Assembly: GCF_031583025.1 (NCBI RefSeq)
Contig: NZ_CP134062.1
Coordinates: 310,001-374,000, forward strand
Length of the DNA stretch: 64,000 nt
DNA from: Mycobacterium sp. Z3061
GTDB taxonomy: Bacteria > Actinomycetota > Actinomycetes > Mycobacteriales > Mycobacteriaceae
Direction of reading: 5' to 3'
Shown here: positions 13,837 to 30,119 of the stretch, in pieces
Layout of the letters: each line of letters starts with the position of its first letter
How positions within the stretch are numbered: position 1 is the first letter of the stretch
Program-made: the position numbers and the translations under genes
The notes under the pieces: model-generated
Told to the model about the DNA's origin: nothing
Seen by the model: the letters and a program-made list of their open reading frames with translations, nothing else
Database searches by the model: none

Positions 13837-13842
13837 TAGTCT
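13837..13842 (+). promoter_or_regulatory. Predicted -10 element of fdhA (leaderless)
   Basis: TAGTCT matches the mycobacterial TAnnnT -10 pattern. It is followed by exactly six bases and then the ATG at 13849, the spacing expected when transcription starts at the A of the start codon. No Shine-Dalgarno sequence is visible. Confidence 0.5.
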
Positions 13843-13848
13843 TCGAGT

Positions 13849-16800
13849 ATGGGACTCACCCGACTCTTCCTGGAATGGCCCGTCGTCCGGCAATTGCGGT
13901 CCGGAGACGGACTTGGCCGCGGTCCGGCGGTGACCTCCAAGCACACCCGCGCCATCACCCCGCGCACCACGACCGCTGACCGGGTGGTGCAGAGCATCTG
14001 CCCGTACTGCGCGGTGGGCTGCGGGCAGAAGGTCTACGTCAAGGACGAAAAAGTCGTCCAGATCGAGGGTGACCCCGATTCGCCGATATCCCGCGGCCGG
14101 CTCTGCCCGAAAGGATCGGCCAGCGAACAACTCGTCAACTCCCCGGGCCGGCAGATGAAAGTCCTCTACCGCGCGCCCGGCGCCACCGAATGGGAACCGC
14201 TGGAGCTCGACCGGGCGATCGACATGGTCGCCGACCGGTTCGTCGAAGCCCGCCGGCACGCCTGGCAGGACATCGACAAACACGGCCACCCACTGCGGCG
14301 CACCATGAAGATCGCCGCACTGGGCGGCGCCACGCTGGACAACGAAGAGAACTACATCATCAAGAAACTCTTCACCGCCGCCGGCGCCATCCAGATCGAG
14401 AACCAAGCCCGTATTTGACACTCCGCCACGGTTCCCGGTCTGGGAACCTCCTTCGGGCGCGGCGGCGCCACCCAATCACTGCAAGACATGGCCAACGCGG
14501 ACTGCATCGTCATTCAAGGCTCGAACATGGCCGAGTGCCATCCCGTCGGGTTCCAGTGGGTGGAAGAGGCTAAAGCCCGCGGCGCCAAGCTGATTCACGT
14601 CGACCCGCGATTCACCCGGACCTCGGCCGTGTCCGATAAGCACATCCCGATCCGGGCCGGCTCCGATGTCGTACTGCTGGGCGCGCTGATCAATTACGTG
14701 ATCGCCCGCGACCTCTGGTTCAGGGAGTACGTGCTGGCCTACACGAACGCGGCCACTCTGATCAACGAAAACTACCGCGACAGCGAGGATCTCGGCGGGC
14801 TGTTCTCCGGCTTCGACCCCGAGACCGGCCAGTACGACACCTCCACCTGGACCTACGCGGGACAGGAGGACGAGCCCGACCCCGAACACGGGGCGAGTGC
14901 CGCCGCCCGCGCCGCCGGCGACGCGCACGGCAGCGGCGGTCCGCCCCTGCCGCATGCCCGCGTCCAGCGCGACGAGACACTGCAGCACCCGCGGTCGGTG
15001 TTCCAGATCCTCAAGCGGCACTACGCGCGCTACACGCCGGAGATGGTGCGCGACGTCTGCGGCATCAGCATCGAGGACTTCGACTACCTCGCCCGCGCCG
15101 TCACCGAGAACTCCGGCCGCGAGCGCACCACCTGTTTCGCCTACGCGGTGGGCTGGACCCAGCACACGCTCGGAGCCCAATTCATCCGCACCGCAACGAT
15201 TCTGCAGTTGTTGCTGGGCAACGTCGGCCGCCCCGGCAGCGGCATCATGGCGCTGCGCGGCCACGCCACCATCCAGGGCTCCACCGACATTCCGACGCTG
15301 TTCAACCTGCTGCCCGGATATCTGTCGATGCCGAAGGCCGGCGTCCACGACACCTATCGGCAGTACATCGAGGCGGTAGGCCCCAAGAACCAGAAGGGCT
15401 TCTGGGCCAACGCCGACACCTATATGGTCAGCCTGCTCAAGGCCTGGTGGGGCGACGCCGCCCGGGAGGACAACGATTGGGCCTACGACTACCTGCCGCG
15501 GTTGTCCGGCCCGCACGGCACCTATCAGACCGTCATGTCGATGCTCGAGGATGAGGTCGACGGGTACTTCCTGCTCGGCCAGAACCCGGCGGTCGGATCG
15601 GCGCACGGCCGGATGCAGCGGATGGGCATGTCCCACCTGAAGTGGCTGGTGGTGCGTGACCTCAACCTGATCGAGTCGGCCACGTTCTGGAAGGACGGGC
15701 CCGAGATCGCCTCCGGCGAGCTGAAGACGGAAGACATCCAGACCGAGGTGTTCTTCTTCCCGGCGGCCACCCACGTCGAGAAGGCCGGCTCCTTCACGCA
15801 GACCCAACGCCTCGTGCAGTGGCGGCATCAGGCGGTCCAGCCGCCCGGTGACTGCCAGAGCGAACTGCAGTTCTTCATCGAGCTGGGCAAGCGGATCAGG
15901 CAACGCCTGGCGGGGTCCACCGATGATCGTGACCGCCCGCTGCTTGACCTGACCTGGGACTATCCCACCGACGAACACGGCGAACCGGACCCCACCGCGG
16001 TGCTGGCCGAGATCAGCGGGCGCTATCTGACCGGGCCGAAGGCGGGCCAGCCGGTACCGGGTTACACCGAACTGGCCGCCGACGGATCGACGGCGTGCGG
16101 CTGCTGGATCTACTCGGGGGTGTACGCCGACGGCGTCAACCAGGCCGCCCGCCGGGCACCGCTCGGCGGCCCCACCCCGAGCCAGTCGGAATGGGGTTGG
16201 GCCTGGCCCGCCGACCGGCGCATCCTCTACAACCGCGCCTCGGCCGACCCGGACGGCAAACCGTGGAGCGAGCGCAAGCGCTACATCTGGTGGGACCCCG
16301 CGCAGCAACGCTGGGTCGGAGACGACGTACCCGACTTCCCGGTCGACCGCGCCCCGGACATCCGTCCCGATCCCGACGTCGGCGGGCCGGACGGGCTGGC
16401 CGGTGACGACCCGTTCATCATGCAGGCCGACGGCAAGGCCTGGCTGTTCGCGCCCAAGGGCCTGGTGGACGGGCCGCTGCCCACCCACTACGAGCCGCAG
16501 GAGTCGCCGGTGGCCAATGCGTTGTACCCGCAGCAGCAGAACCCGTCGCGAATCATGTTCCCGCGCAAGGACAATCTGTGGGCCCCCAGTGCCGGAGACC
16601 CGGGCAGCGACGTCTACCCGTATGTGTTCACCACTTATCGGCTCACCGAGCATCACACCGCGGGCGGCATGAGCCGCTGGCTGCCGTACCTCGCCGAGCT
16701 GCAGCCGGAGATGTTCTGCGAGGTCTCCCCGGAGCTGGCCGCCGAACGCGGTCTCGAGCCGTACGGCTGGGCGACGATCGTCTCCCCGCGGGCGGCCATC

Positions 16801-17121
16801 GAGGCCAAGGTGCTCGTCACCGAGCGGATGAGGCCCCTGGTCATCGGCGGCCACACCATCCACCAGATCGGGCTGCCCTACCACTGGGGGGTGGGCAGTG
16901 ACGCCGTGGTGAGCGGAGACGCGGCCAACGACCTGCTGGGGGTGGCGCTGGACCCGAATGTGCAGATCCAGGAGTCCAAAGCCGGCTCGTGTGACATCCG
17001 CCCGGGCCGGCGGCCGCAAGGTGAGGCGCTGCTGCGGCTCATCGAGGAGTACCAGTCGCGTGCGGGGGTAACCGTGGAGACGGACAATATCCGGGTGACT
17101 CATCCGCAGCGGGAGGCTTGA
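13849..17121 (+). CDS. fdhA: Formate dehydrogenase alpha subunit, selenocysteine-containing
   Basis: Molybdopterin oxidoreductase of 1090 residues read through an in-frame TGA at 14416-14418, which encodes selenocysteine (Sec190). The frame continues with HSATVPGLG and family sequence on both sides. The N-terminal [4Fe-4S] site is CPYCAVGC (Cys51, 54, 58) with Cys86 in LCPKG, and the bis-MGD domains follow. It oxidises formate to CO2 and passes electrons to the beta subunit. No twin-arginine signal is visible, unlike E. coli FdnG, and a stop at 13837 excludes an upstream start, so the enzyme probably faces the cytoplasm. Its stop overlaps fdhB (TGATG). Acidic and Pro-rich inserts near residues 340-380 lengthen it beyond FdnG. 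Confidence 0.95.
14416..14448 (+). promoter_or_regulatory. UGA selenocysteine codon and bacterial SECIS element
   Basis: The TGA at 14416-14418 is followed after 18 bases by the loop GGTCT (14437-14441), enclosed by a perfect 7-bp stem, GGTTCCC (14430-14436) and GGGAACC (14442-14448). From memory, the loop sequence and the 18-base distance equal those of E. coli fdhF, whose GGUCU loop is bound by SelB. The element lies inside the coding region, as in all bacterial SECIS, and the selA, selB, selC and selD genes are adjacent. Confidence 0.93.
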
Positions 17122-18083
17122 TGGCGCAGCTGGTCGAATCGACCGACCCCACTGACGACGCGGGTTGGCCGGATCCCAAGCCGCGTAAGGGGTTTTTCAC
17201 CGACACCTCCATCTGCATCGGCTGCAAGGCGTGCGAGGTGGCCTGCAAGGAGTGGAACCGCAACCCACGCGACGGTGACCTGGAAATCCTCGGTTCGTCC
17301 TACGACAACACCGGCAGTCTGGGTGCCAGCACCTGGCGGCACGTCGCGTTCATCGAGCAGGGCCGTGACCGCATCGAGGAGGCCCGCGAATCCGGGCGCG
17401 CCCTGGTGAGCCTGGGCATGCCGTCCGTGCCGGCCCCGCCCGACACCACTCCGCCGGACACTCCGGAGTTCCGTTGGCTGATGGCCTCGGACGTGTGCAA
17501 GCACTGCACCCACGCCGGCTGCCTCGACGTCTGCCCGACGGGTGCGTTGTTCCGCACCGAATTCGGCACCGTCGTCGTGCAGGATGACGTGTGCAACGGG
17601 TGCGGCACCTGCGTTGCCGGGTGCCCGTTCGGCGTCGTCGAGCGGCGCAGCGACGGCACCTACGCCACGCCGGCCAAACGCTCGGAGCGCCCGGAACACG
17701 GGTTCGTAACCGGCGTGGCCCAGAAATGCACGCTCTGCTACGACCGGCTTCTAAAAGACCAGACGCCGGCCTGCGCCCAGACCTGCCCGACGACGTCGAT
17801 CAAGTTCGGCGACCACGACGATCTCGTCGCGGCCGCGCGCGAACGGGTTTCCGCGTTGCATGCGCGCGGCATGACCGAGGCGCGCCTGTACGGCGCCAAT
17901 GAGCACGACGGTGTCGGCGGCACCGGGTCGGTCTTCCTGCTCCTGGACGAGCCCGAGGTGTACGGGCTGCCACCGGATCCGCGGGTCTGCACGGCGGATC
18001 TGATGACCATGTTCAAGCGGGCCGGGGTGGCCGCCGCCGGTATGTTCGCCGCGGGTGCGCTGGCCTTTCTGCGGGCGCGATGA
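17121..18083 (+). CDS. fdhB: Formate dehydrogenase beta subunit (4x[4Fe-4S] ferredoxin-like)
   Basis: Electron-transfer subunit of 320 residues. Four cysteine clusters are visible: CIGCKACEVAC (Cys32-42), CKHCTHAGCLDVCP, CNGCGTCVAGCP and CTLCYDRLL...CAQTCP, enough for four [4Fe-4S] centres linking the molybdenum site to the membrane. The last 20 or so residues (VAAAGMFAAGALAFL) are hydrophobic and may be a membrane anchor, as in FdnH. The start is ATG 17121, overlapping the alpha-subunit stop; a TTG precedes it in frame. Its stop overlaps the next ATG (ATGA). Confidence 0.93.
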   Translation: MAQLVESTDPTDDAGWPDPKPRKGFFTDTSICIGCKACEVACKEWNRNPRDGDLEILGSSYDNTGSLGASTWRHVAFIEQGRDRIEEARESGRALVSLGMPSVPAPPDTTPPDTPEFRWLMASDVCKHCTHAGCLDVCPTGALFRTEFGTVVVQDDVCNGCGTCVAGCPFGVVERRSDGTYATPAKRSERPEHGFVTGVAQKCTLCYDRLLKDQTPACAQTCPTTSIKFGDHDDLVAAARERVSALHARGMTEARLYGANEHDGVGGTGSVFLLLDEPEVYGLPPDPRVCTADLMTMFKRAGVAAAGMFAAGALAFLRAR

Positions 18084-19144
18084 GCACGTCGGAGTACGAC
18101 AGCCTGCGGCCGCCGTCGGGTGGGAAACGTCGTCGTCGTGGCGACGGGAAGCGCCGCCGCGATGAGTCGTTGATGGTGCCGGACGCCGAATTCTCCTCCT
18201 ATTACGGACGTCCGGTGGTCAAGCCGGCGCCGTGGGGTCACGAGGTCGGCGCCTATCTGTTCCTCGGTGGAGTGGCCGGTGGGTCAGGCTTGCTGGCAGC
18301 GGGCGCCCAGCTTACGGGTCGAAAGGTGTTGCGCCGCAACACCAGGCTTGCCGCTCTGGGCGCCGTGATGCTGGGGGCGGTGGCACTGGTCAAGGACCTG
18401 GGGCGACCTGAGCGCTTCGTCAACATGCTGCGCACCTTCAAGCTGACCTCGCCGATGAGCGTCGGCTCGTGGATCCTGAGCTTCTTCAGCGCAGGGATTG
18501 GGGTGGCCGCGGCGTCCGAGGTCGACCGGCTGACCGGTGAGCGGCTGCCGCTCGGTCCGCTACGGCCGGTGCTGCGCGCGATGGAGGGCCCGGCCGGCTT
18601 GGAGGCCGCGCTGCTCTCTCCGCCGCTGGCGGTGTACACCGCAGTGTTGTTGTCCGACACCGCAACCCCGACGTGGAACGCGGCGTACAAAGACCTGCCG
18701 TTCGTCTTCGTCAGCTCGGCGAGCCTGGCCGCATCGGGATTGGCGATGATCACCACGCCGGTCGCCGAAGCCGTGCCCGCCCGCAGGCTGGCGGTCATCG
18801 GCGCCGTGAGTGATCTGATCTCCGCCAGGATCACCGAATACCGGATGGACCCGGTGACCAGGGAGCCGCTACACCACGGGACGCCCGGCCGGTTGCTGCA
18901 GGCGAGTGAAATACTGGCTGCCGCAGGAGGTTTGGGTGCTCTGCTGGGCGGGGGTCGCCGCGATGTCGCTGTTCTGTCCGGCCTGACGCTTCTGACGGCG
19001 TCGGCGATGCTGCGGTTCGGCTTCTTCGAGGCGGGTAAGGAATCGGCGCGCGATCCCCGCTACACGATCGAGCCGCAGAAGCGCAGGCTGGCCGCGCGCC
19101 GGGCGGCGGGGATCACCGACGACTCGATCACCAGTGCTGGTTGA
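18080..19144 (+). CDS. NrfD/PsrC-like membrane subunit of formate dehydrogenase
   Basis: Integral membrane protein of 354 residues with a basic, Lys/Arg-rich N-terminus (GGKRRRRGDGKRRRDE) and about eight hydrophobic stretches, starting GAYLFLGGVAGGSGLLAAG. This fits the NrfD/PsrC family, which passes electrons between an iron-sulfur subunit and membrane quinone and lacks haem. It replaces the cytochrome b subunit (FdnI) of E. coli formate dehydrogenase N. It is the third gene of the fdh operon by ATGA overlap and is convergent with selD 6 bases later. Confidence 0.88.
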   Translation: MSTSEYDSLRPPSGGKRRRRGDGKRRRDESLMVPDAEFSSYYGRPVVKPAPWGHEVGAYLFLGGVAGGSGLLAAGAQLTGRKVLRRNTRLAALGAVMLGAVALVKDLGRPERFVNMLRTFKLTSPMSVGSWILSFFSAGIGVAAASEVDRLTGERLPLGPLRPVLRAMEGPAGLEAALLSPPLAVYTAVLLSDTATPTWNAAYKDLPFVFVSSASLAASGLAMITTPVAEAVPARRLAVIGAVSDLISARITEYRMDPVTREPLHHGTPGRLLQASEILAAAGGLGALLGGGRRDVAVLSGLTLLTASAMLRFGFFEAGKESARDPRYTIEPQKRRLAARRAAGITDDSITSAG

Positions 19145-19150
19145 AGCAGG

Positions 19151-20122
19151 CTAACGAATTTCGATGCCGCTGCCCGCCGTGGTGTGGCCGATAACGGGAT
19201 GGCCGGGCAGCTCACCGACCACCAGCAGTCCGCCCGAGGTTTGGGCATCGGCCAGCAACAGCAAGTCGTCTTCGGTTACCCCGTTTGTGATTTCGAGGTG
19301 GGGCCGTACCCAGTCGAGATTGCGGCGGCTGCCGCCGGAGACGAACCCGTCTTTGAGCGCCACCAGCGCGGCGTCGAGCACCGGCACCGCGGCGCGCTCT
19401 ACGACGGCGCCGATGCCGGAGGCCCGGCACAGTTTGTGCAGGTGACCGAGCAGCCCGAACCCGGTCACGTCGGTGGCCGCTTGGACACCCGCCTCGAGTG
19501 CCGCCTCGGACGCGTCACGGTTGAGCCGCGTCATGAGGTCGATCGCTTCCTGGCACACCTCACCGGTCTGCTTGTGCCGGTTGTTGAGCACGCCGACGCC
19601 GAGCGGTTTGGTCAGCGTCAGCGGCAGCCCCGGGCGGGCGGAGTCATTGCGCAGCAATCGCGCGGGGTCGGCCACGCCGGTGACGGCCATCCCGTACTTG
19701 GGTTCGGGGTCGTCGATCGAATGCCCGCCGATCACCGGGCAGGCCGCCTCGGACGCCACCGCGAGCCCGCCGCGCAGCACTTCGGTCATCAACTCCAGCG
19801 GCAACACGTCACGCGGCCAGCCGACGAGATTGATGGCGACGACCGGGCGCCCGCCCATCGCATAGATGTCGGACAGCGCGTTGGCGGCGGCGATGCGTCC
19901 CCAGTCGTAGGCGTCGTCGACCACCGGGGTGAAGAAATCCGCGGTGGACAGCACCGCCAGGTCGCCGACCCGGACAGCGGCGGCGTCGTCACCGTCGTCG
20001 AGTCCCACCAGCACGTCGGGGCCGGCCTGGCCGGTGAGCCCGCGCACCGCCTCTTCCAGCTCGCCGGGCGGGATCTTGCAGGCACAGCCGCCGCCGTGTG
20101 CGTAGCCGGTGAGCCGCGTCAT
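19151..20122 (-). CDS. selD: Selenide, water dikinase (selenophosphate synthetase)
   Basis: Enzyme of 323 residues making selenophosphate from selenide and ATP, the selenium donor for SelA. The N-terminal catalytic loop HGGGCACK contains Cys13 and Lys16, matching Cys17 and Lys20 of E. coli SelD, so this is the Cys rather than the Sec form. Further motifs are DDAAAVRV, STADFFTPVVDD, NALSDIYAMGG and ATDVTGFGLLGH. It is somewhat shorter than the E. coli protein. The start ATG 20122 lies 6 bases after a TAGGCT -10-like element. It converges on the fdh operon and faces away from selC-selA-selB. Confidence 0.95.
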   Translation of the reverse strand: MTRLTGYAHGGGCACKIPPGELEEAVRGLTGQAGPDVLVGLDDGDDAAAVRVGDLAVLSTADFFTPVVDDAYDWGRIAAANALSDIYAMGGRPVVAINLVGWPRDVLPLELMTEVLRGGLAVASEAACPVIGGHSIDDPEPKYGMAVTGVADPARLLRNDSARPGLPLTLTKPLGVGVLNNRHKQTGEVCQEAIDLMTRLNRDASEAALEAGVQAATDVTGFGLLGHLHKLCRASGIGAVVERAAVPVLDAALVALKDGFVSGGSRRNLDWVRPHLEITNGVTEDDLLLLADAQTSGGLLVVGELPGHPVIGHTTAGSGIEIR

Positions 20123-20128
20123 GGTTCG

Positions 20129-20134
20129 AGCCTA
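20129..20134 (-). promoter_or_regulatory. Predicted -10 element of selD (leaderless)
   Basis: On the minus strand TAGGCT is followed by CGAACC and then the ATG of selD, the same TAnnnT-six bases-ATG arrangement seen before fdhA and the adenylyl cyclase gene. Confidence 0.45.
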
Positions 20135-20149
20135 CGGAGCTCGGCGAGT

Positions 20150-20195
20150 GTGCGGCCAGCCGCACGCCGGTAGCCGAATGTGCGGCCAGCCGCAC
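20150..20195. repeat. Two copies of a 16-bp palindrome, 30 bp apart
   Basis: GTGCGGCCAGCCGCAC occurs at 20150-20165 and again at 20180-20195. Each copy is an inverted repeat of GTGCGGC around a CA centre. They fill the gap between the selD start and the selC tRNA gene, so they could be operators, transcript hairpins, or members of a genomic small-repeat family. Confidence 0.7.
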
Positions 20196-20239
20196 GCTCG
20201 GAGGCCGCTGGCAAGCGCGGCAGAGGTACGTTTACCCCT

Positions 20240-20332
20240 GGAGGCGTTTGGGTTCCTGGTGGTCCCCCCGGTCTTCAAAACCGGTGAGATCGAGCATCTC
20301 GGTCTGGCGGGTTCGATTCCCGTCCGCCTCCG
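20240..20332 (+). tRNA. selC: tRNA-Sec (anticodon TCA)
   Basis: A 93-base tRNA with the features of selenocysteine tRNA. The anticodon stem CCGGT/ACCGG encloses the loop CTTCAAA with anticodon TCA at 20275-20277, and a long variable arm (GAGAT/ATCTC) follows. The T arm is GCGGG, TTCGATT, CCCGT. The acceptor stem starts GGAGGCG and ends CGCCTCC with discriminator G; the eighth acceptor pair (T with C) is mismatched. CCA is not encoded. It lies 39 bases before selA, in the same orientation, and decodes the UGA in fdhA. Confidence 0.95.
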
Positions 20333-20371
20333 CTTTTGCTTCAAAAGTGAAAGCCCATCAGGAGAGGTCAC

Positions 20372-21679
20372 GTGACACAGGTCGACCCGCGGCGACTGAT
20401 TCCGCGCACGGATCAGTTGCTGGCCCTACCGGCTGTGCAGCGGCAGCGAAACAGGCTGGGCGACAAAGCCGTCCGTGCCACGGTGCGCGAAACGCAGGAG
20501 CGCGCGCGCCGCGGTGACCTGCCACCGGACCAGGTGCCGGCAGCGGTCGAGGCGGCCCTGGCCGCCCAGGCCACCACCTCGCTGCGGCCGGTGCTGAACG
20601 CCACCGGCGTCGTCGTGCACACCAATCTCGGCCGTGCTCCGCTGGCCGCCGGCGCGGTCGACGCGTTGATCGCCGCCAGCGGCTACGTCGACGTCGAACT
20701 CGACCTCACCACCGGTACCCGCTCCAAACGCGGCGTCGCACTCCGGGAAGCGCTGCTCGGCGCCTGCCCGGCGGCCGAGGACGCCCTCGTCGTCAACAAC
20801 GGTGCCGCCGCCCTGGTGCTGGCGACCACCGCCCTGGCCGGCGACAAGGAAGTGATCATCAGTCGCGGTGAACTCATCGAGATCGGAGCAGGCTTCCGGC
20901 TGCCCGACCTGATCGCCTCCACCGGCGCGCGACTTCGCGAAGTCGGCACCACCAATCGCACCCATCTCAGGGACTACGAGGCGGCGCTGGGGCCGGAAAC
21001 GGGCTGCGTGCTCAAGGTGCACCAGAGCAACTTTCGGGTGGAAGGCTTCACGGCCGCCGCATCGCTGGCCGACCTGCACACACTGAGCGCGGCGCGGCGC
21101 ATTCCACTGATCGCCGACCTGGGCAGCGGGCTCCTCCGGCCGGACCCGGTGCTGCCCGACGAGCCCGATGCCGCCACCGCGCTGGCCGAGGGCGCCGACC
21201 TCGTCATCGCGAGCGGCGACAAACTGCTCGGCGGACCACAGGCGGGGATCATCCTGGGCCGCGCCGAGGTGATCACCAGGCTGGCGCGGCATCCACTGGC
21301 CCGGGCGGTCCGCGCCGACAAGCTGACCCTGGCCGCGCTCGAGGCGACGGTCCGCGCCGGCGGCTCCCCGGTGACCGCGGCTCTGCATGCCGAGAGTGAC
21401 CGGTTGCGTATCCGCGCGCAGCGATTGGCCGACGCGGTCGGCGCGACCGTCGTCGCGCATGACGGCCGCGTCGGTGGCGGCGGTGCGCCCGGCGTGCCGC
21501 TACCCGGGTGGGCGGTCCGCCTGCCGGAGTCGGCTGCCGCACCGCTGCGTGCCGGCGAGCCCGCGGTACTGCCCCGCGTGCACGACGGCGCCTGCCTGCT
21601 GGATCTGCGCTGCATTGCCGAGGCCGACGACAATCGCCTGCTGGCTGCGGTGCGCGCGGCGCTGGACGGACAGCCCTGA
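20372..21679 (+). CDS. selA: L-seryl-tRNA(Sec) selenium transferase
   Basis: PLP enzyme of 435 residues converting seryl-tRNA(Sec) to selenocysteinyl-tRNA(Sec) with selenophosphate. The PLP-binding lysine is Lys284 in SGDKLLGGPQAG; other family motifs are NATGVVVHTNLGRAP, VVNNGAAALVL and LADLGSGLL. GTG 20372 is preceded by AGGAGAGGTCA, a strong ribosome site. It is slightly shorter than E. coli SelA (463). It lies directly after selC and 11 bases before the chosen selB start, so selC, selA and selB are likely one unit. Confidence 0.95.
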   Translation: MTQVDPRRLIPRTDQLLALPAVQRQRNRLGDKAVRATVRETQERARRGDLPPDQVPAAVEAALAAQATTSLRPVLNATGVVVHTNLGRAPLAAGAVDALIAASGYVDVELDLTTGTRSKRGVALREALLGACPAAEDALVVNNGAAALVLATTALAGDKEVIISRGELIEIGAGFRLPDLIASTGARLREVGTTNRTHLRDYEAALGPETGCVLKVHQSNFRVEGFTAAASLADLHTLSAARRIPLIADLGSGLLRPDPVLPDEPDAATALAEGADLVIASGDKLLGGPQAGIILGRAEVITRLARHPLARAVRADKLTLAALEATVRAGGSPVTAALHAESDRLRIRAQRLADAVGATVVAHDGRVGGGGAPGVPLPGWAVRLPESAAAPLRAGEPAVLPRVHDGACLLDLRCIAEADDNRLLAAVRAALDGQP

Positions 21680-21690
21680 GCACTCATGTC

Positions 21691-23466
21691 GTGGCCACCG
21701 CGGGCCACGTCGACCACGGCAAGAGCACACTCATTCACGCGCTCACCGGCATGGAGCCCGACCGCTGGGAGGAGGAGCGTCGCCGCGGCCTGACCATCGA
21801 CCTCGGCTTCGCGTGGACCACGCTGCCGTCCGGCCGCAAGGTCGCGTTCGTCGACGTGCCGGGCCACCAGCGCTTCCTGGGCAACACGCTGGCCGGCCTC
21901 GGTCCCGCGCCGGTGGTGTGCTTCGTCGTCGCCGCCGACGAGGGCTGGCGCGCACAATCCGACGACCACCGCGACGCCGTTGCGGCACTGGGCATTCAGC
22001 ACGGTCTCATCGTGATCACCCGCGCCGACCGGGCCCCGGAGCGCGGCGCCGAGGTGCTCGCCCAGGCCCGCGCCGAGTTGGCCGAAACCGGCCTGCGCGG
22101 CGCCCCGGGCATCATCGTGTCGGCCGTCGAGGGCAGCGGGCTCGCCGAGTTGCGTGCGGCTTTGGACGGCGTACTGGCGCAGGTGCCGGCACCCGAGACC
22201 GGCGCCCGGGTGCGGCTGTGGGTGGACCGTTCCTTCACCATCACCGGCGCCGGCACGGTGGTGACCGGCACGTTGCCCGCCGGGACACTCACCGTCGGCG
22301 ACCGGCTGGACCTGTTCGGTGCGTCGCGCATCCGGTCGGCGACGATTCGCGGAGTACAGAGTTGTGGGCAGCCGTTCCCCTTCCTGGGACCCGTTTCGCG
22401 GGTGGCGCTGAACCTTCGCGGTGTGCCCCGCGAAGCCGTGCGCCGCGGCGACGCGCTGATCACCCCGGACGCATGGCCGGACACCCGGCTACTCGACGTG
22501 CGGCGCACCTCCGGCGGTGTGTGGAGTGAGGCCCCGACTCATCTGGTCGCCCATGTCGGCACGGCGGCCGTGCCGGTGCGGTTGCGCCCCTTCGATGACG
22601 ACCATGCCCGGCTCACCCTGGACCGGAGCCTGCCATTGGTGTTCGGCGACCGGCTGGTGCTGCGCGACCCGGGCAGCGTCCGGATTGTCGGCGGTGCCGA
22701 GGTGCTCGACGCCGAACCTCCGGGGCTGCGCCGACGCGGCGACAGCGGGCGCCGCGCAGCGATTTTGGCGCGCGCGGAACCCGGCGGTGACGTCGAAGCC
22801 GAGGTCGCGCGCCGGGGAGCCGTTCCGGAAACGCATCTGCGCCGGCTGGGGTTGTTACCGCACACCGTTCCCGCCCAGGTCCTGGTCGTCGACGGTTGGT
22901 GGGTGCACCGACCGACGCACGAGGCATGGCAGCACCGGCTGCGGGCCGCGGTCGACGGCCTACGCGCACGAGATCCGTTGGCCGACGGTCTGTCTCGGGG
23001 CGCGGCCCGCGACCTGCTGGCGCTGCCCGACGAAGCACTGCTGGACGGGGTTGCCCGCGCCGCCGGGCTCGAGCAGGACGGCGGCACCATCCGGCTACCC
23101 GGCACCCGCGACGAACTCGGTGACGCCGAAGCACCGATCAGTGAGCTGGAGAAGAAGTTACGAGCTGACCCGTTCGGGGCACCGGAAGCCTACGAACTAC
23201 AGGCGCTGAAACTGGGCACCCGCGAACTGGCCGCCGCCGAGCGCGCCGGACGCGTGTTGCGATTGCGCGACGGCGTGGTGCTGTTGCCGAACGCACCCGC
23301 GCTGGCCATGCGCACCCTGGCCACGCTCGATCAGCCCTTCACCACAAGCCAAGCACGCCAGGCACTTAACACCACCAGGCGGGTCGCGATTCCGCTCCTC
23401 GAACACCTCGACGCCCGCGGATGGACCCGTCGACTGGATGCCGGTCACCGAGAAGTGGTGCGCTGA
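21691..23466 (+). CDS. selB: Selenocysteine-specific elongation factor
   Basis: GTPase of about 591 residues that delivers Sec-tRNA(Sec) to UGA codons next to SECIS hairpins. The N-terminal EF-Tu-like domain has the P-loop AGHVDHGKS, RRGLTIDLGF (switch I) and DVPGH (G3); the G4 motif reads TRAD instead of the usual NKxD-like sequence. The Ala/Arg-rich C-terminal half fits the four winged helices that bind the SECIS. GTG 21691 gives the standard N-terminus just before ATAGHVDHGK; in-frame codons back to 21676 overlap selA and lack an ATG, so the exact start is uncertain. Confidence 0.93.
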   Translation: MATAGHVDHGKSTLIHALTGMEPDRWEEERRRGLTIDLGFAWTTLPSGRKVAFVDVPGHQRFLGNTLAGLGPAPVVCFVVAADEGWRAQSDDHRDAVAALGIQHGLIVITRADRAPERGAEVLAQARAELAETGLRGAPGIIVSAVEGSGLAELRAALDGVLAQVPAPETGARVRLWVDRSFTITGAGTVVTGTLPAGTLTVGDRLDLFGASRIRSATIRGVQSCGQPFPFLGPVSRVALNLRGVPREAVRRGDALITPDAWPDTRLLDVRRTSGGVWSEAPTHLVAHVGTAAVPVRLRPFDDDHARLTLDRSLPLVFGDRLVLRDPGSVRIVGGAEVLDAEPPGLRRRGDSGRRAAILARAEPGGDVEAEVARRGAVPETHLRRLGLLPHTVPAQVLVVDGWWVHRPTHEAWQHRLRAAVDGLRARDPLADGLSRGAARDLLALPDEALLDGVARAAGLEQDGGTIRLPGTRDELGDAEAPISELEKKLRADPFGAPEAYELQALKLGTRELAAAERAGRVLRLRDGVVLLPNAPALAMRTLATLDQPFTTSQARQALNTTRRVAIPLLEHLDARGWTRRLDAGHREVVR

Positions 23467-23483
23467 TCCGCCTACCGCCAGGC

Positions 23484-23489
23484 TATTCT
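23484..23489 (+). promoter_or_regulatory. Predicted -10 element of the adenylyl cyclase gene (leaderless)
   Basis: TATTCT followed by GCACGC and then ATG 23496. The distance puts the transcription start at the start codon. No Shine-Dalgarno sequence is present between selB and this ATG. Confidence 0.5.
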
Positions 23490-23495
23490 GCACGC

Positions 23496-24752
23496 ATGGC
23501 GCCCGAAGCGCATCCAGCGGCGGCGGTGCCGGTCACGAGTCGACGCCGCCGCCTGCCGCCGCGCAACGCCACCTATCCCAAAAGCGTTACCCGCCAGAGG
23601 CGTGTTCTGGTCAGGGCCACCAGGATCGGCGCCGTCGTCAGCGCTTTCTACACTCTCCTCGCCATCTTCGTCGGTCATGACGGGACCCCCATCGCCGTGC
23701 TCAGCGCCGTCAGCACAGTGGTCTACCTGGGGATTCCGCTGCTGTACCGCTTCGGGGAACTCGTCGCGCCAATGGTTTTCATCGTCGCCGCCTACGTGCT
23801 GATCACATCACTGTGCTTGAACGTCGGCACCGGAACCGGAATTCAGTTCTACTACCTGGTGGGCGCATCAATTGTGGTCCTGGTGCTGGGCATCGACCAC
23901 ATCGTGCTGGCGACGGTGATGGCGGCGGTGGGAGCGGTGCTGACCGTCCTCCTGCAGATGACGGTACCCGAAACGACCGGCGTGCAACCTCATTGGGCCT
24001 ACGCCTTCGGCTACATCGTGTCGGTGGCGACATCCTGGCTCATGGTCATGGCGATCGTCTGGTCGGCGTTGCGCGAAATCACCCGTGCCGAACGGGTGAT
24101 CGAAGCGGAATACCTCCGGTCGGAGTCGTTGCTGGCCAACATTCTGCCGGCGAAAATCGCTGAGCGGTTGAAGGATCCGTCGCGGCCCGTCATCGCCGAC
24201 AGGTATGACGATGCCTCGGTGTTGTTCGCCGATATCGCCGGTTTCACCAGTAGAGCCAGTGATACCCCGCCCACTGACCTGGTCCGGTTCCTGGATCAGC
24301 TCTACACCAAGCTGGATGGCCTGGTCGACCGGCACGGGCTGGAGAAGATCAAGACCAGTGGCGATTCGTACATGGTCGTCAGCGGGGTACCGGATCCGCG
24401 TCCGGACCACCTAGAAGCGCTGGCTCAGCTCGCACTGGACATGGCGCAGGCCGTTGCCGGTCTGAAAGATCCACGGGGCCGGGCTGTTCCGTTACGGATC
24501 GGGTTGGCGGTCGGTCCCGTGGTCGCCGGTGTGGTCGGAGCGCGCAAGTTCTTCTACGACGTATGGGGCGACGCCGTCAACGTCGCGGCGCGGATGGAGA
24601 CCACCGACGTCGAGGGCCGCATCCAGGTGCCCCAGGACGTGTATGACCGGCTCAAGGACCGGTTCGTGTTCGAGGAACGCGGCGACATCGACGTCAAAGG
24701 CAAGGGCGTGATGCACACCTGGTATCTCGTCGGCAGAGCTCCCTGGCGTTAA
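23496..24752 (+). CDS. cya: Class III adenylyl cyclase, six-transmembrane, Rv1625c-like
   Basis: Protein of 418 residues making cAMP from ATP. About six hydrophobic helices span residues 42-192, then a HAMP-less linker (EAEYLRSESLLANILP) and one cyclase domain. Catalytic residues are visible: metal ligands Asp246 (FADIAGF) and Asp290 (SGDSY), purine-selecting Lys286 and Asp355, and transition-state Asn362 and Arg366 (GDAVNVAAR). From memory the architecture and sequence closely resemble M. tuberculosis Rv1625c, which acts as a homodimer with the cyclase in the cytoplasm. The open frame extends upstream to 23421, but ATG 23496 lies at leaderless distance from TATTCT. It shares its TTAA stop with the convergent gene. 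Confidence 0.95.
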   Translation: MAPEAHPAAAVPVTSRRRRLPPRNATYPKSVTRQRRVLVRATRIGAVVSAFYTLLAIFVGHDGTPIAVLSAVSTVVYLGIPLLYRFGELVAPMVFIVAAYVLITSLCLNVGTGTGIQFYYLVGASIVVLVLGIDHIVLATVMAAVGAVLTVLLQMTVPETTGVQPHWAYAFGYIVSVATSWLMVMAIVWSALREITRAERVIEAEYLRSESLLANILPAKIAERLKDPSRPVIADRYDDASVLFADIAGFTSRASDTPPTDLVRFLDQLYTKLDGLVDRHGLEKIKTSGDSYMVVSGVPDPRPDHLEALAQLALDMAQAVAGLKDPRGRAVPLRIGLAVGPVVAGVVGARKFFYDVWGDAVNVAARMETTDVEGRIQVPQDVYDRLKDRFVFEERGDIDVKGKGVMHTWYLVGRAPWR

Positions 24753-25774
24753 ATCCCCGCTGCGTCCGCGATTTCGCGTGCCTTCTGCACCCGGGCGTCG
24801 ATCCACGCGAGCACGGGAGTTCCGGCTGAGGCCTTGTTCTGCGGCTCGTCCATCGCCCGGCGCATCACCCCCTCTGCGATGATGGCCAGCTTCCACAGCC
24901 CCAGGGCATGCCAGTACTGCAACGCGGCGGCGTCGCGGCCCGTCTCGTCCAGGTACAACCGGGTCATCTCCGCCCGGTCCGGAAAACCTTCCAGTGTCGA
25001 CGGCGCGTAGTCACCGCTGAGCGCTTCACCCGGCTCGGCCCAGTAGGTGAGCAGACTGCCCATGTCGGCCAGCGGATCGCCCAGTGTGGACAGTTCCCAG
25101 TCCAGCGTCGCCACGATCGCACCGGTCTCCGGTGAGGTGATCAGGTTGCGCAGGTGAAAGTCGCCGTGCACCAAGCTGACCTCGCGCTGCTCGGGCGCGG
25201 CGGCAGCCAGCCGGCGGGTGAGGTCGTCCAGGTCCGGTAGTTCTCGCGTCTTGGAGAGCTCCCACTGGCCTGCCCAGCGTTTGAGCTGACGCTGGGCGTA
25301 CGGCTTGTGGCTGGCGAGGTCGGCCAGGCCCACCTCGTCGAGGTCGACCGCGTGAATCTTGGCCAGGGTGCGCGGTAGGTCGACGGCGATCTGATGCCGT
25401 TGCCGCGGCGTCAGCGCTTCGGCCACCCCCATGGTGTCGACCACCAGCCCGTCCACGAACTCCATCAGCACCAGCGGCACGTCGCTGAAATCGGAATCCG
25501 TTGTCGTTGCGATGATTTGCGGTACCGGCACCGGGGTGTCCGCCAGGGCCGCGATGATGCGCGCTTCCCGCAGTACGTCGTGCGCCGAGGCCAGCAGATG
25601 GCCCAGGGGCGGCCGGCGCAACACCCAGGCGCGGCTCCCCGCATCGCTGACCCGGTACGTGAGATTGGACTGGCCGAGGCCGATCCGCTGAAACTGCAAC
25701 GGTGCTTCGAACTCGATCCCGAGCGTGGTGAGCCAGCGTGCCACCGCGTCAGGGTCGAGGCCGATGACCGTCAC
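24749..25774 (-). CDS. APH/choline-kinase-like phosphotransferase (FadE36/ACAD11-N type)
   Basis: Kinase-fold protein of 341 residues with the catalytic loop [11 protein letters not shown] and the Mg-binding [13 protein letters not shown], both typical of aminoglycoside-phosphotransferase-like proteins. The set [14 protein letters not shown] and [12 protein letters not shown] matches the subgroup found in mycobacteria as Rv3761c and fused to acyl-CoA dehydrogenase in ACAD10/11. Its GTG overlaps the stop of the acyl-CoA dehydrogenase gene (GTGA), so the two proteins are co-expressed. By analogy with LvaA and ACAD11 it may phosphorylate a 4-hydroxyacyl-CoA. Antibiotic resistance is unlikely. 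Confidence 0.85.
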
Positions 25775-26985
25775 TTAGGCGCCCGGTACTTGCGCAGCTC
25801 CTGACTGGCGATGGACCGCTTGTGCACCTCGTCCGGGCCGTCGGCCAACCGCAAGGTGCGCAGATGCGCCCACGCCATGGCGAGCGGGAAGTCGTCGGTC
25901 ACACCGCCGCCGCCGTGCACCTGAATGGCGCGATCGACGATCTTCAGGGCGATGTTCGGGGCCGCCACCTTGATGGCCGCGATCTCGGTCCTGGCTTCCT
26001 TGTTGCCGACCGTGTCCATCAGATACGCGGCCTTCATGGTGAGCAGCCGGATCATCTCGATGTCGATACGGGACTCGGCGATCCAGTCCCGGATATTGGC
26101 GTTGGCACTGATCGGTTTGCCGAAGGTGACCCGCGACTCCGCACGCCGGCACAGCAGTTCCAGCGCCCGCTCGGCCATGCCGATCGCCCGCATGCAGTGG
26201 TGGATACGACCCGGGCCCAGTCGCGCCTGGCTGATGGCGAAACCCTCGCCCTCGCCCTTGAGCACGTCCTTCGACGGCACCCGCACGTCCTCGAAGTCGA
26301 TCTCCGCGTGGCCCTCGCGGTCCTGGTAGCCGAAGACCGACAGATTGCGCCGGACCGTGATGCCCGCGGCATCGATCGGTACCACCATCATCGACTGCTG
26401 ACGGTGCGGTGCGGCGTCCGGATCGGTCTTGCCCATCACGATCAGCACCTTGCAATTGCGGTGCATTCCGTTGGAGGCGAACCATTTACGGCCATTCAGG
26501 ACGTAGTCGTCACCGTCGCGGACCATCGACATCTCCACGTTGGTGGCATCGGAGCTCGCGACGCCAGGCTCGGTCATCGCGAACGCCGACCGGATCTTGC
26601 CGTCCAGCAGAGGCTTGAGGTAGCGCTCCTTGTGCTCGTCGGTGCCGAACAGCGTCAACACCTCCATGTTGCCTGTGTCCGGGGCGCTGCAGTTGCACGC
26701 CTCCGAGGCGAGGTGGCTGCGGCCCATGATCTCGGCCAGCGGTGCGTACTCGAGGTTCGTCAGTCCCGGCCCCCACTCGGGATGTGGGTGAAACAGGTTC
26801 CACAGGCCCCGCTTTCGTGCCTCGGCCTTGAGGTCCTCCAGGATCGGCGGGTGGTAGTGCGGGTCACCGGCTTCCCGCATCTGCTCGTCGTAGACGACCT
26901 CCGACGGGTACACGTGCGAATCCATGAACTCGAGCAGGTCCGACTGGTACTGCAGGGCGCGCTCGGAGATATCAAACAGGGCCAT
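25771..26985 (-). CDS. Acyl-CoA dehydrogenase, ACAD10/11-like
   Basis: FAD-dependent protein of 404 residues: [38 protein letters not shown], and the C-terminal [15 protein letters not shown] and [11 protein letters not shown]. These match the branch that includes ACAD10/11 and LvaC, in which the dehydrogenase fold can act on a phosphorylated 4-hydroxyacyl-CoA made by a kinase-like partner. That partner is encoded immediately downstream with overlapping stop and start. The ATG 26985 lies 6 bases after TAGACC on the minus strand, suggesting a leaderless message. Ordinary fatty acyl-CoA oxidation is the alternative. Confidence 0.88.
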
Positions 26986-27052
26986 ACCAGTGGTCTACAC
27001 CACCCGCGCGATAGGCCCCTTCGCGGCATCGCCAACCAGGCGGTTCGCGCGT

Positions 27053-27058
27053 TACCGT
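27053..27058 (+). promoter_or_regulatory. Predicted -10 element of the alcohol dehydrogenase gene
   Basis: TACCGT, then CGACGG, then ATG 27065: the same six-base spacing as the other putative leaderless promoters in the window. The 79-bp gap also contains the divergent TAGACC element (26992-26997, minus strand) of the acyl-CoA dehydrogenase gene. Confidence 0.4.
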
Positions 27059-27064
27059 CGACGG

Positions 27065-28171
27065 ATGAAGACAACAGCCGCGGTCCTCGTCGAAGCGGGC
27101 CGGCCATTCGAACTGATGGAACTCGACCTGGACGGGCCGAGAGAGGGCGAAGTCCTGATCAATTACACCGCGGCCGGGTTGTGCCATTCCGACCTGCACC
27201 TCACCGACGGTGACCTGCCGCCTCGCTTCCCGATCGTCGGCGGCCACGAAGGAGCCGGGGTCATCGAGGATGTCGGCCCGGGCGTGACCAAGGTGAAACC
27301 CGGCGATCACGTCGTCTGTAGCTTCATCCCCAGCTGCGGACACTGCCGGTACTGTTCCACCGGCCGGCAGAGTCTCTGCGACCTGGGGGCGACGATCCTC
27401 GAAGGGTGCATGCCGGACGGATCCTTCCGATTTCACGGTGGCGGAACGGATTTCGGCGCGATGTGTATGCTCGGGACCTTCGCCAAGAAGGCCACCATCT
27501 CGCAGCATTCGGTGGTCAAGGTCGACGACTGGCTACCGTTGGACGTCGCGGTGCTGGTCGGCTGCGGCGTGCCGACGGGATGGGGCAGCGCCACCTACGC
27601 GGGCAATGTCCGCCCCGGCGACATCACCGTGATCTACGGCATCGGCGGAATCGGTATCAACGCCGTCCAGGGCGCGGTGCATGCCGGCGCCAAATACATC
27701 GTGGTGGTCGACCCGATCGCGTTCAAACGCGACGCCGCGCTCAAGTTCGGTGCGACCCACGCCTTCGAAAACGCCGCGGCGGCCGCCGAGAAGATCAGTG
27801 AACTGTCCTGGGGCCAGGGCGCGGACCAGGCCATCGTCACCGTCGGCACGGTGGACGAAGACGTGATCTCGGCGGCGTTCGACGCCGTCGGCAAGGGGGG
27901 CACCGTCGTCGTCGTGGGCCTCGCCGATCCCGCGAAGGCGACTGTCCACGTCTCGGGGGGCATGCTCGTGCTGACCGAAAAGACGATCAGGGGCTCACTG
28001 TTCGGCTCGGCCAACCCGCAGTACGACATCGTCCGGCTGCTACGCCTCTACGACGCGGGACAACTCAAGCTCGACGAACTCGTGACGACGAAGTACCGCC
28101 TCGAGGACGTCAATCAGGGTTATCAGGACCTGCGGGAGGGCAAGAACATTCGAGGCGTCATCGTTCACTGA
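27065..28171 (+). CDS. NDMA/mycofactocin-type zinc alcohol dehydrogenase
   Basis: Zinc-dependent medium-chain dehydrogenase of 368 residues. Catalytic zinc ligands are in GLCHSDLH (Cys38) and GGHEGAG (His60, Glu61), and structural zinc cysteines in [15 protein letters not shown]. The Rossmann loop is [13 protein letters not shown]. The sequence closely follows the Rxyl_3153 group ([30 protein letters not shown]), whose members keep NADH bound and are thought to need mycofactocin, or NDMA in vitro, to recycle it. It is divergent from the acyl-CoA dehydrogenase and convergent, with a 7-base overlap, with the aldolase. The open frame upstream to 26924 lies inside the neighbouring gene and is not used. 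Confidence 0.9.
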
Positions 28172-29178
28172 GCCCCGGGGGCGGTGAGGTCCAGCGCGAT
28201 ATCGACCAGCATGTCCTCCTGCCCGCCGATCATGCCGCGACGGCCCGCCTCTTCCAGCAGCGTCCTGGCGTCGATGCCGTAGCGAGCCGAAGCCTCTTCG
28301 GCGTGCCGCAGGAAGCTCGAATAGACACCGGCGTACCCGAGCGTCAACGTCTCGCGATCCACCCGAACGGGCCGGTCCTGCAGGGGACGGACCAAGTCGT
28401 CGGCGGCGTCCTGGAGTGCGTGCAGGTCGCAACCGTGCTGCCAACCGAGCTTGTCGGCGGCGGCGACGAAGACTTCCAGCGGTGCGTTGCCGGCGCCGGC
28501 ACCCATCCCGGTCAGGGAGGCATCGACGCGGGCGGCCCCGTGCTCTACGGCCGTGATTGAGTTGGCCACCCCCAGCGACAGATTGTGGTGCGCGTGGATC
28601 CCGACTTCCGTTGTCGCCAGCAGTATTTGGCGCACGGCGTCGACGCGTTCGGCGACGTCGCGCATGGTCATGGCACCACCGGAATCGACCACGTACACGC
28701 AACCGGCGCCGTAGCTCTCCATCAGTCTGGCCTGTTCGGCCAGTGCGGTGGGCGTGGTCAGGTGGCTCATCATCAGGAACCCGGCGGTGTCCATGCCGAG
28801 TTCGCGGGCCGCCGCGATGTGCCGGGCGGAAATGTCGGCCTCGGTGCAGTGCGTGGCGACGCGGACCACGGTGGCACCGGCGCGGTGCGCGTCTTTCAGG
28901 TTGCGAACGGTGCCGATGCCGGGCAGCACCAGCGTTGCGACCCGAGCGTGCCGCACGTTGGCCGCGACGGCCTCGATCCATTCCAGGTCGGTGTGTGCCC
29001 CGAAGCCGTAAACGCAACTGGATCCGGCCAATCCGTCCCCGTGCGCGACTTCGATGGAGTCGACGCCTGCGGCGTCGAGTGCCGCGGCGATCGCGACTGC
29101 TGAGTGCAGCGTGTACTGGTGCCGCACGGCGTGCATCCCGTCACGCAGGGTGACGTCGCTGATGAAGAGGCCAGTCAT
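28165..29178 (-). CDS. dmpG: 4-Hydroxy-2-oxovalerate aldolase
   Basis: DRE-TIM metallo-aldolase of 337 residues ([17 protein letters not shown] at the N-terminus; metal-binding His pair in [11 protein letters not shown]). It cleaves 4-hydroxy-2-oxoacids to pyruvate and an aldehyde, which is channelled to the acetaldehyde dehydrogenase encoded just upstream. The start ATG 29178 overlaps that gene's stop (ATGA). The order hydratase, dehydrogenase, aldolase is the same as in the mycobacterial hsaEGF cluster, but the neighbours differ, so this is probably a paralogous or separate pathway. Confidence 0.94.
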
Positions 29179-30119
29179 GAGGTGGCCCCGGCCGATTGGC
29201 GGGCGATGCACTCGGCGGTGGCCTGCGCCGCGGAGGTCATGATGTCGAGATTGCCGGCGTAGGCAGGCAGGTAGTCCCCGGCCCCGGCGACCTCCAGCAT
29301 CGCGGTGACCCGGGTGCCGGCGAACTTGCCGGTTTCGGGGATGTATAAAGGTTTTTCGGGGGTGAAGGTTTCGAACTGCACACCTTGGGTGAGCCGGTAG
29401 CCGGGCACGTAGGCGTTGACGCGTGCCACCATGTCGGCGATCGATGCCCGGATCGCGCCGTGATCGGCGTCCCCGTCGACCAGACAGTAGACGGTGTTGC
29501 GCATGAGTACCGGTGGGTCGGCCGGATTGATAATCATGACGGTTTTGCCGCGTTGGGCTCCTCCCACGGATATCAGTGCTGCCGAGGTGGTTTCGATGAA
29601 TTCGTCGATTCCGGCGCGGGTTCCGGGGCCCGCGGACTTCGACGAGATGCAGGAGACGACTTCGGCGTAGGAGACGACGCCGTGCTCGGCAATCGCGGCC
29701 ACGATCGGCACCGTCGACTGGCCGCCGCAGGTCACCATGTTCAGGTTGCCCCGGTCGAGGTGGTCATCGAGGTTGACCACCGGGACGCAGTATGGGCCGA
29801 CGGCAGCCGGGGTGAGGTCGAGCACCCGTACCCCGGTCGGTTGCAGCCTCGCCCAGTTGGCCCGGTGGACGGTGGCAGATGTCGCGTCGAATACCAGCCT
29901 GATGTCGCCGAAGTGTGGCATGGACAGCAAGCCCGCGACGCCGCCGGCCGTGGTGGGAACGCCAGCGGCGCGGGCGCGTGCCAAACCATCTGAATCGGGG
30001 TCTATGCCGGCCATGGCGACCACTCGAAGCGCGCCGTCGCTACGCAGGATCTTGGTCATCAGGTCGGTGCCGATGTTGCCCGAGCCGATGATCGCCACCG
30101 GCCAGTCATGTTGCGCCAC
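29175..30119 (-). CDS. Acetaldehyde dehydrogenase, acylating
   Basis: Enzyme of 314 residues converting acetaldehyde (or propanal) and CoA to acyl-CoA with NAD+. It has the nucleotide loop [11 protein letters not shown], the catalytic Cys131 in [10 protein letters not shown], and the conserved [12 protein letters not shown]. It forms a channelling complex with the aldolase, whose start overlaps its stop. Eleven bases separate it from the hydratase gene upstream. Family membership is clear; the physiological chain length of the aldehyde is not. Confidence 0.94.

Follow-up and report, generated by a model that had tools for sequence, protein, structure and literature searches.

The stretch of DNA analysed here, 64,000 nucleotides from Mycobacterium sp. 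Z3061 (contig NZ_CP134062.1; hereafter the window), carries on its plus strand a gene for the alpha subunit of a formate dehydrogenase (FDH) at 13849..17121 (end including the final TGA). The frame has a single interruption, a TGA at 14416..14418, which is predicted to be read as selenocysteine (Sec) 190 and to provide the Mo or W ligand. When this codon is read through, the product comprises 1090 residues, and 3' of it the frame remains open for 900 codons. As claimed in a preliminary description of this DNA, the list of open reading frames (ORFs) and the translation gave two frames in the same phase, split solely by the TGA. No start upstream of ATG 13849 is possible, because the frame opens at 13840; with this start the proposed Sec is residue 190, as had been stated, within the motif NQARI-U-HSATVPGLGTSFGRGGA. 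The description had further foreseen one large protein of about 118 kDa; the single large protein stands, while the mass calculated with Cys at position 190 is 120.3 kDa. An 875-residue ORF also runs antisense to the FDH gene (14476-17103, minus strand), most likely as a by-product of high GC.

The alpha subunit matched the NCBIfam model NF041513 from end to end (1935.8 bits, cut-off 1400; residues 7-1071 on positions 3-1067 of 1067) and also scored over the cut-off of TIGR01553 (932 bits, cut-off 814.2). The Pfam domain Molybdop_Fe4S4 lies 5' of the TGA, and the molybdopterin and dinucleotide-binding domains (Molybdopterin, Molydop_binding) lie 3' of it, so that the right-hand frame continues the molybdopterin part of the enzyme as proposed. 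A TGA placed away from the molybdenum-ligand position had been named beforehand as the observation that would speak against a selenoenzyme. In an alignment with chains of solved enzymes, ungapped around the site, U190 lies opposite the non-standard residues X158 of 1H0H chain A, presumably selenocysteine, and X192 of 8CM4 chain A, which is named selenocysteine-containing in its structure listing. The 9QM0 chain in the same alignment has C opposite U190, and we take the residue aligned with position 190 to serve as metal ligand. No RR occurs in the first 60 residues of alpha, and with the frame opening 3 codons before the ATG there is no room upstream for a twin-arginine signal. The nearest named loci are from Mycobacterium (96% for one isolate, 92% for M. 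genavense).

The gene for the iron-sulphur beta subunit (plus strand) is listed as 17118..18083 with TTG 17118, although its start is probably ATG 17121, overlapping the alpha stop. Its product contains Fer4 domains and remained below the cut-off of TIGR01582 (158.2 bits, cut-off 334.7). A membrane subunit of the NrfD/PsrC type is encoded at 18080..19144 on the same strand (PF03916, 61.3 bits, cut-off 25.8). These genes are joined by selD at 19151..20122 on the minus strand, encoding a selenophosphate synthetase that appears by eye to be the Cys form (TIGR00476, 381.5 bits, cut-off 125), and by three genes on the plus strand: selC at 20240..20331, a tRNA-Sec with anticodon TCA found by ARAGORN (RF01852, 74.8 bits, gathering score 47) and the only one over the cut-off in the 6.79-Mb single-contig genome; selA at 20372..21679, for selenocysteine synthase (TIGR00474, 432 bits, cut-off 267.9); and selB at 21691..23466, for the Sec-specific elongation factor (TIGR00475, 264.4 bits, cut-off 242.25; PF09107 SelB winged helix), whose start is uncertain (GTG 21691 proposed, 21508 in the ORF list). 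SelA, SelB, SelD and tRNA-Sec are thus encoded side by side, each over its own cut-off. The adjacency of all four sel genes to the FDH, noted earlier from the letters alone, was borne out by ARAGORN, Rfam and the profile matches.

The tRNA-Sec gene of the window (20240-20340) has no encoded 3' CCA, which is present in the relatives L070, L074, L089, L149 and L151. Right after selB lies a gene that resembles, by eye, an adenylate/guanylate cyclase (23421-24752); it was matched at this place in L068, L078 and L080.

The hairpin downstream of the TGA

Bacterial selenocysteine insertion elements (SECIS) are defined as a hairpin shortly after the UGA with GU in its loop. The candidate SECIS of the window, at 14430..14448 on the plus strand, lies close to the UGA and consists of a 7-bp stem (14430-14436 / 14442-14448) and the loop GGTCT (14437-14441) with a GT core. 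The preliminary description was right about stem and loop but placed the hairpin 18 bases after the TGA; 18 nt is the distance to the loop, and the stem starts 11 nt after the TGA. Its statement that the spacing is that of E. coli fdhF agreed with our measurement of 18 nt from TGA to GGTCT in E. coli K-12 fdhF. Across both strands of the window this is the sole perfect 7-bp hairpin with a GGTCT loop, compared with 14 per strand when any 5-nt loop is allowed. Rfam yielded no SECIS, and within the window only the tRNA-Sec reached its gathering score.

Folding energy was considered as evidence for the hairpin and rejected, because shuffled sequences often fold as well; it is a supporting rather than a defining trait of such elements. 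For a 40-nt piece we obtained z = -1.19, with 27 of 200 shuffles folding as well, and the corresponding counts were 137 of 200 for a 70-nt and 127 of 200 for a 120-nt piece, the best 120-nt fold lacking the hairpin.

The energy of the hairpin is unremarkable, whereas its conservation is remarkable. In the first set of loci the stem pairs were kept in all 32 distinct sequences. In a wider set, each stem pair was kept in 37 or 38 of 38 distinct stretches and the GT loop core in 38 of 38, and compensatory double changes were present in the stem (A-T for G-C, C-G for T-A). Loops of AGTTT or AGTCT, which change Gly to Ser and keep the GT core, occur in Arthrobacter, Kocuria and some others. Synonymous sites were then compared across 131 loci with 115 distinct genes, where we counted 523 fourfold sites at which at least 60% of the genes share the codon box. 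Wobble entropy averaged 1.15 bits over these sites, and the only invariant wobble bases were those of codons 196, 197 and 198 (the main codon box being shared by 115, 87 and 96 genes, respectively), all of which lie in the hairpin. Furthermore, only codons 195 and 197 have one of T or A at the wobble position in more than 90%, in genes whose wobble bases are 89% G or C.

Distribution of the TGA gene and tRNA-Sec

A motif scan covered 141 loci, some of them the same genome fetched twice. The codon was TGA in 131 loci and TGC in four (L036-L038 and L065); one further locus (L056) has TGA but was left out of the count, and five showed no motif, two because they do not include that part of the gene (L033, L059), the others being a remnant (L057), another gene (L062) and a distant homologue (L067). 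The remnant (L057, G089:C94) is broken into several pieces, and no tRNA-Sec over the cut-off was found in its 3.2-Mb genome.

We also sampled 118 genomes drawn from the genus. The TGA gene was present in 59 of them, a full-length TGC version in three (G004, G053, G093), and only fragments in one (G089); the other 55 had no close homologue listed. In 48 of the 59 genomes the TGA was confirmed at the motif itself and, in the rest, by one TGA inside the gene in the homologue search; three of the 59 carry the gene in pieces (G005, G072, G109) and one carries it broken (G006). A tRNA-Sec over the cut-off was found in 57 of the 118 genomes, and all 57 carry the TGA gene (Fisher p 1.5e-31, which ignores shared descent); one of the two tallies of tRNA-Sec used stricter filters. 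The two TGA genomes with neither tRNA-Sec over the cut-off nor a selA match are G006, discussed below for its deletion, and the draft G086. In the latter, the FDH contig is only 6.5 kb long and selB is on another contig; because its near relative G101 has all of these genes, selA and tRNA-Sec of G086 are presumably hidden by a contig gap.

In G004, G053 and G093, the genomes with a full-length TGC gene, we found no tRNA-Sec over the cut-off and no selA match, using a selA query that recovered five of five positive controls down to 60% identity. Their hairpin has a broken stem and the loop GGGCT. Likewise, the Nonomuraea locus L065 combines TGC with a disrupted hairpin, and its 21-kb stretch yielded no sel gene. 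Cys replaces Sec where the machinery was not found.

As for profile scores, the best SelB matches of G002, G010, G011, G014, G040 and others reached 212-235 bits in the genome search, below the TIGR00475 cut-off of 242.25, and this cut-off was passed by only 26 of the 118 genomes compared with 57 that have a tRNA-Sec over its cut-off. The TIGR00475 cut-off may miss many SelBs, although in many cases the score from the genome search covers just a part of the protein.

Probable separate histories of the FDH operon and the sel machinery

In 17 loci, including those of M. paraense, M. colombiense and M. interjectum (for example L074, L086, L089, L090 and L105), an FDH operon of the window lineage is accompanied by selD, selA, selB and tRNA-Sec that belong to a second mycobacterial lineage, and the genes stand in a third order. 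For trees we used 86 of 106 loci, in which alpha, selD, selA and selB were each at least 80% of full length, and dropped 20 as incomplete. By identity to the window, loci with alpha below 70% were assigned to group B, those with alpha above 80% and selA below 64% to the mosaic group, and the rest to group A (window type), which gave 49 A, 19 B and 17 mosaic loci plus one outgroup. As the groups were set by alpha and selA identity, the contrast between these two genes is built in, and the actual tests of the mosaic are selB, selD, tRNA-Sec, beta, nrfD, gene order and the trees.

Identities were compared for 12 A loci hand-picked from the 49, all 17 mosaic loci and all 19 B loci; beta and nrfD entered as best matching stretches with no length filter, some loci being cut inside these genes. 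The mosaic loci had mean identities to A and B, respectively, of 85.6 and 64.0 for alpha, 85.3 and 59.1 for beta, and 82.5 and 49.9 for nrfD. For the machinery the relation was reversed, with 70.0 and 87.6 for selD, 58.9 and 80.7 for selA, 50.3 and 75.1 for selB, and 76.8 and 90.7 for tRNA-Sec. The ranges of mosaic identity to A and to B did not overlap for any of the seven genes, with those of tRNA-Sec nearly touching (73.1-83.7 and 84.2-100). Gene order was fixed within each group (A 49/49, mosaic 17/17, B 19/19). A tblastx scan of flank synteny was too noisy and was left out of the mosaic evidence.

In alpha trees the mosaic rows fell inside A, in two places, and in the selA and selB trees they fell with B. 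In both the selA and the selB tree, A is set apart from the mosaic and B rows by a branch whose support was 100 with 31 chosen rows, and 94 and 96 with all 86 rows; the 86-row selB tree came with a warning about long branches joining at the outgroup. A single alpha clade of mosaic plus B was rejected (p 0.0074), for groups named from identities and not beforehand. The AU tests of selA (p 0.052) and selB (p 0.046) are weak and ask only whether some branch of an unrooted tree splits B off from all other rows. Together, the identities, gene orders and trees indicate that the FDH operon has not shared the history of the sel machinery. Each of the three hairpin sequences seen in mosaic loci is found in A too; in the mosaic reading, the same hairpin would be served by two SelBs that share about 50% identity, together with tRNA-Secs that share about 77%.

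A second kind of change was seen in G006, a genome labelled as the same species (locus L056, G006:C1:222000-241000). Its flanks are 98.3% and 97.0% identical to the window, and the segment corresponding to 18294-29740 (11.4 kb) is missing inside a 455-kb contig. Of nrfD only a stub remains, and selD, tRNA-Sec, selA and selB are gone together with neighbouring genes. The FDH gene keeps its TGA and is broken in frame near codon 674, and the rest of the genome gave no selA match and no tRNA-Sec over the cut-off. G006 is a draft of 380 contigs, so the gap may be an assembly error; the apparent course of events is that the Sec machinery was lost in one 11.4-kb deletion. Overall, it is very likely that in mycobacteria the selenoprotein and its decoding apparatus have been exchanged independently (17 loci) and that, in addition, a same-species draft appears to have lost the machinery in this way.

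Proposed function and alternative readings

Judged from sequence, the alpha gene almost certainly encodes the catalytic subunit of a membrane-associated Mo (or W) FDH of the actinobacterial FDH-N-like family, with Sec190 inserted by way of SelB and the hairpin. SelB carrying Sec-tRNA-Sec would bind the hairpin 14430-14448 and direct insertion of selenocysteine at the UGA 14416-14418, the adjacent selD, selC, selA and selB supplying the selenocysteine, and the selenium of Sec190 would then ligate the metal, Mo or W. Electrons from formate would pass from the Fe-S cluster of alpha to those of beta and on to the NrfD-type subunit, with menaquinone as the putative acceptor. As alpha has no twin-arginine signal, its catalytic side probably faces the cytoplasm.

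A near-cognate tRNA (Trp, Cys or Arg) might instead read the UGA, which would be compatible with the DNA data alone, and near-cognate read-through of UGA may occur when selenium is short. With tRNA-Sec (TCA), SelA, SelB, SelD and a hairpin spaced as in fdhF all present, and with the co-occurrence of the TGA gene and tRNA-Sec, we regard such a reading as very improbable. Even less credible is that the TGA represents a nonsense mutation or a sequencing error in a pseudogene. A plain ORF list does yield two ORFs, and broken copies exist in relatives, namely G006 and the fragments of G089. However, the same TGA is found in 131 loci, the codons after it remain open, synonymous sites in the hairpin are constrained, and intact sel genes and tRNA-Sec lie alongside. 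Scarcely any weight attaches, too, to a split enzyme made of residues 1-189 and a product from ATG 14488: this ATG does open an 877-residue ORF, but a product restarting there would lack residues 190-213 and with them the conserved ligand motif, each TGC homologue is encoded in one unbroken frame, and the conservation of the hairpin would have no reason.

For annotation, the favoured selenoenzyme reading means that the two ORFs are one selenoenzyme gene and not a pseudogene. The expectation that automatic annotation calls a truncation proved correct for a plain ORF list, which splits the gene, but not for RefSeq, which has a single CDS across the TGA in all three annotated relatives examined (the TGA-bearing plasmid records L063, L064 and L066); two further records have no gene table at the locus. 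In L063 (NZ_CP110115.1) and L064 (NZ_LR134459.1) the complete Sec trait with its FDH lies on plasmids, one of them typed conjugative. The plasmid typed as conjugative, in Arthrobacter, has the whole set of FDH, beta, nrfD, selD, tRNA-Sec, selA and selB.

Comparison with known systems and implications

The whole-protein match to NF041513 (formate_DH_Act) left no difference in what was tested. 1H0H and 8CM4, which we take to be Desulfovibrio FDHs solved as alpha-beta enzymes, share the non-standard residue at the aligned position; the window adds an NrfD subunit and has no twin-arginine motif. The E. coli protein is more distant from alpha (1AA6 153 bits, compared with 705 bits for 1H0H), and its fdhF hairpin has, in the predicted fold, a bulge and a 4-nt loop, whereas that of the window has a perfect stem and a 5-nt loop, at the same spacing. 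FDH-N of the E. coli type is periplasmic, with a twin-arginine signal on alpha and a cytochrome b gamma subunit. The window alpha passes TIGR01553 as this type does, but it differs in the missing twin-arginine signal, in a third gene of NrfD type instead of cytochrome b, and in a beta subunit below TIGR01582.

Sec-FDHs with linked sel genes are already known in actinobacteria, and the finding in the window holds as an unexceptional example of them. A close parallel by description, in another genus, is fdnG-fdxH of Corynebacterium aurimucosum ATCC 700975, for which a 2010 publication gives an in-frame UGA in fdnG, fdxH and linked selD, selC, selA and selB (PMC2830990). Actinomycetospora chiangmaiensis DSM 45062, likewise compared by description, has three Sec FDHs, of which FDH1 is listed as one cluster of a Sec alpha of 1078 residues, beta, gamma, SelA and SelB, SelD being absent from the cluster listing; with selenite present, formate accumulation was almost negligible, and FdhA1 appears in the proteome table (PMC7176365). 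A read-through FDH is entered for M. avium paratuberculosis in a table of a 2005 survey (PMC1242214), and a different, non-FDH selenoprotein of M. smegmatis is predicted in PMC6039565.

PMC5029168 records transfers of the Sec trait between actinobacteria, and PMC1794560 puts forward the hypothesis that the trait mostly evolves and moves with FdhA, to which the mosaic group looks like an exception. In the literature searched we did not find the exchange and the deletion described here, and the string "mycobacter" is absent from the main texts of both PMC1794560 and PMC5029168. The mosaic loci and the deletion raise the interest of the finding modestly: the former represent a natural part-swap experiment on the compatibility of SECIS, SelB and tRNA-Sec, and G006, compared with the complete genome from its species, shows what appears to be an ongoing loss of selenocysteine.
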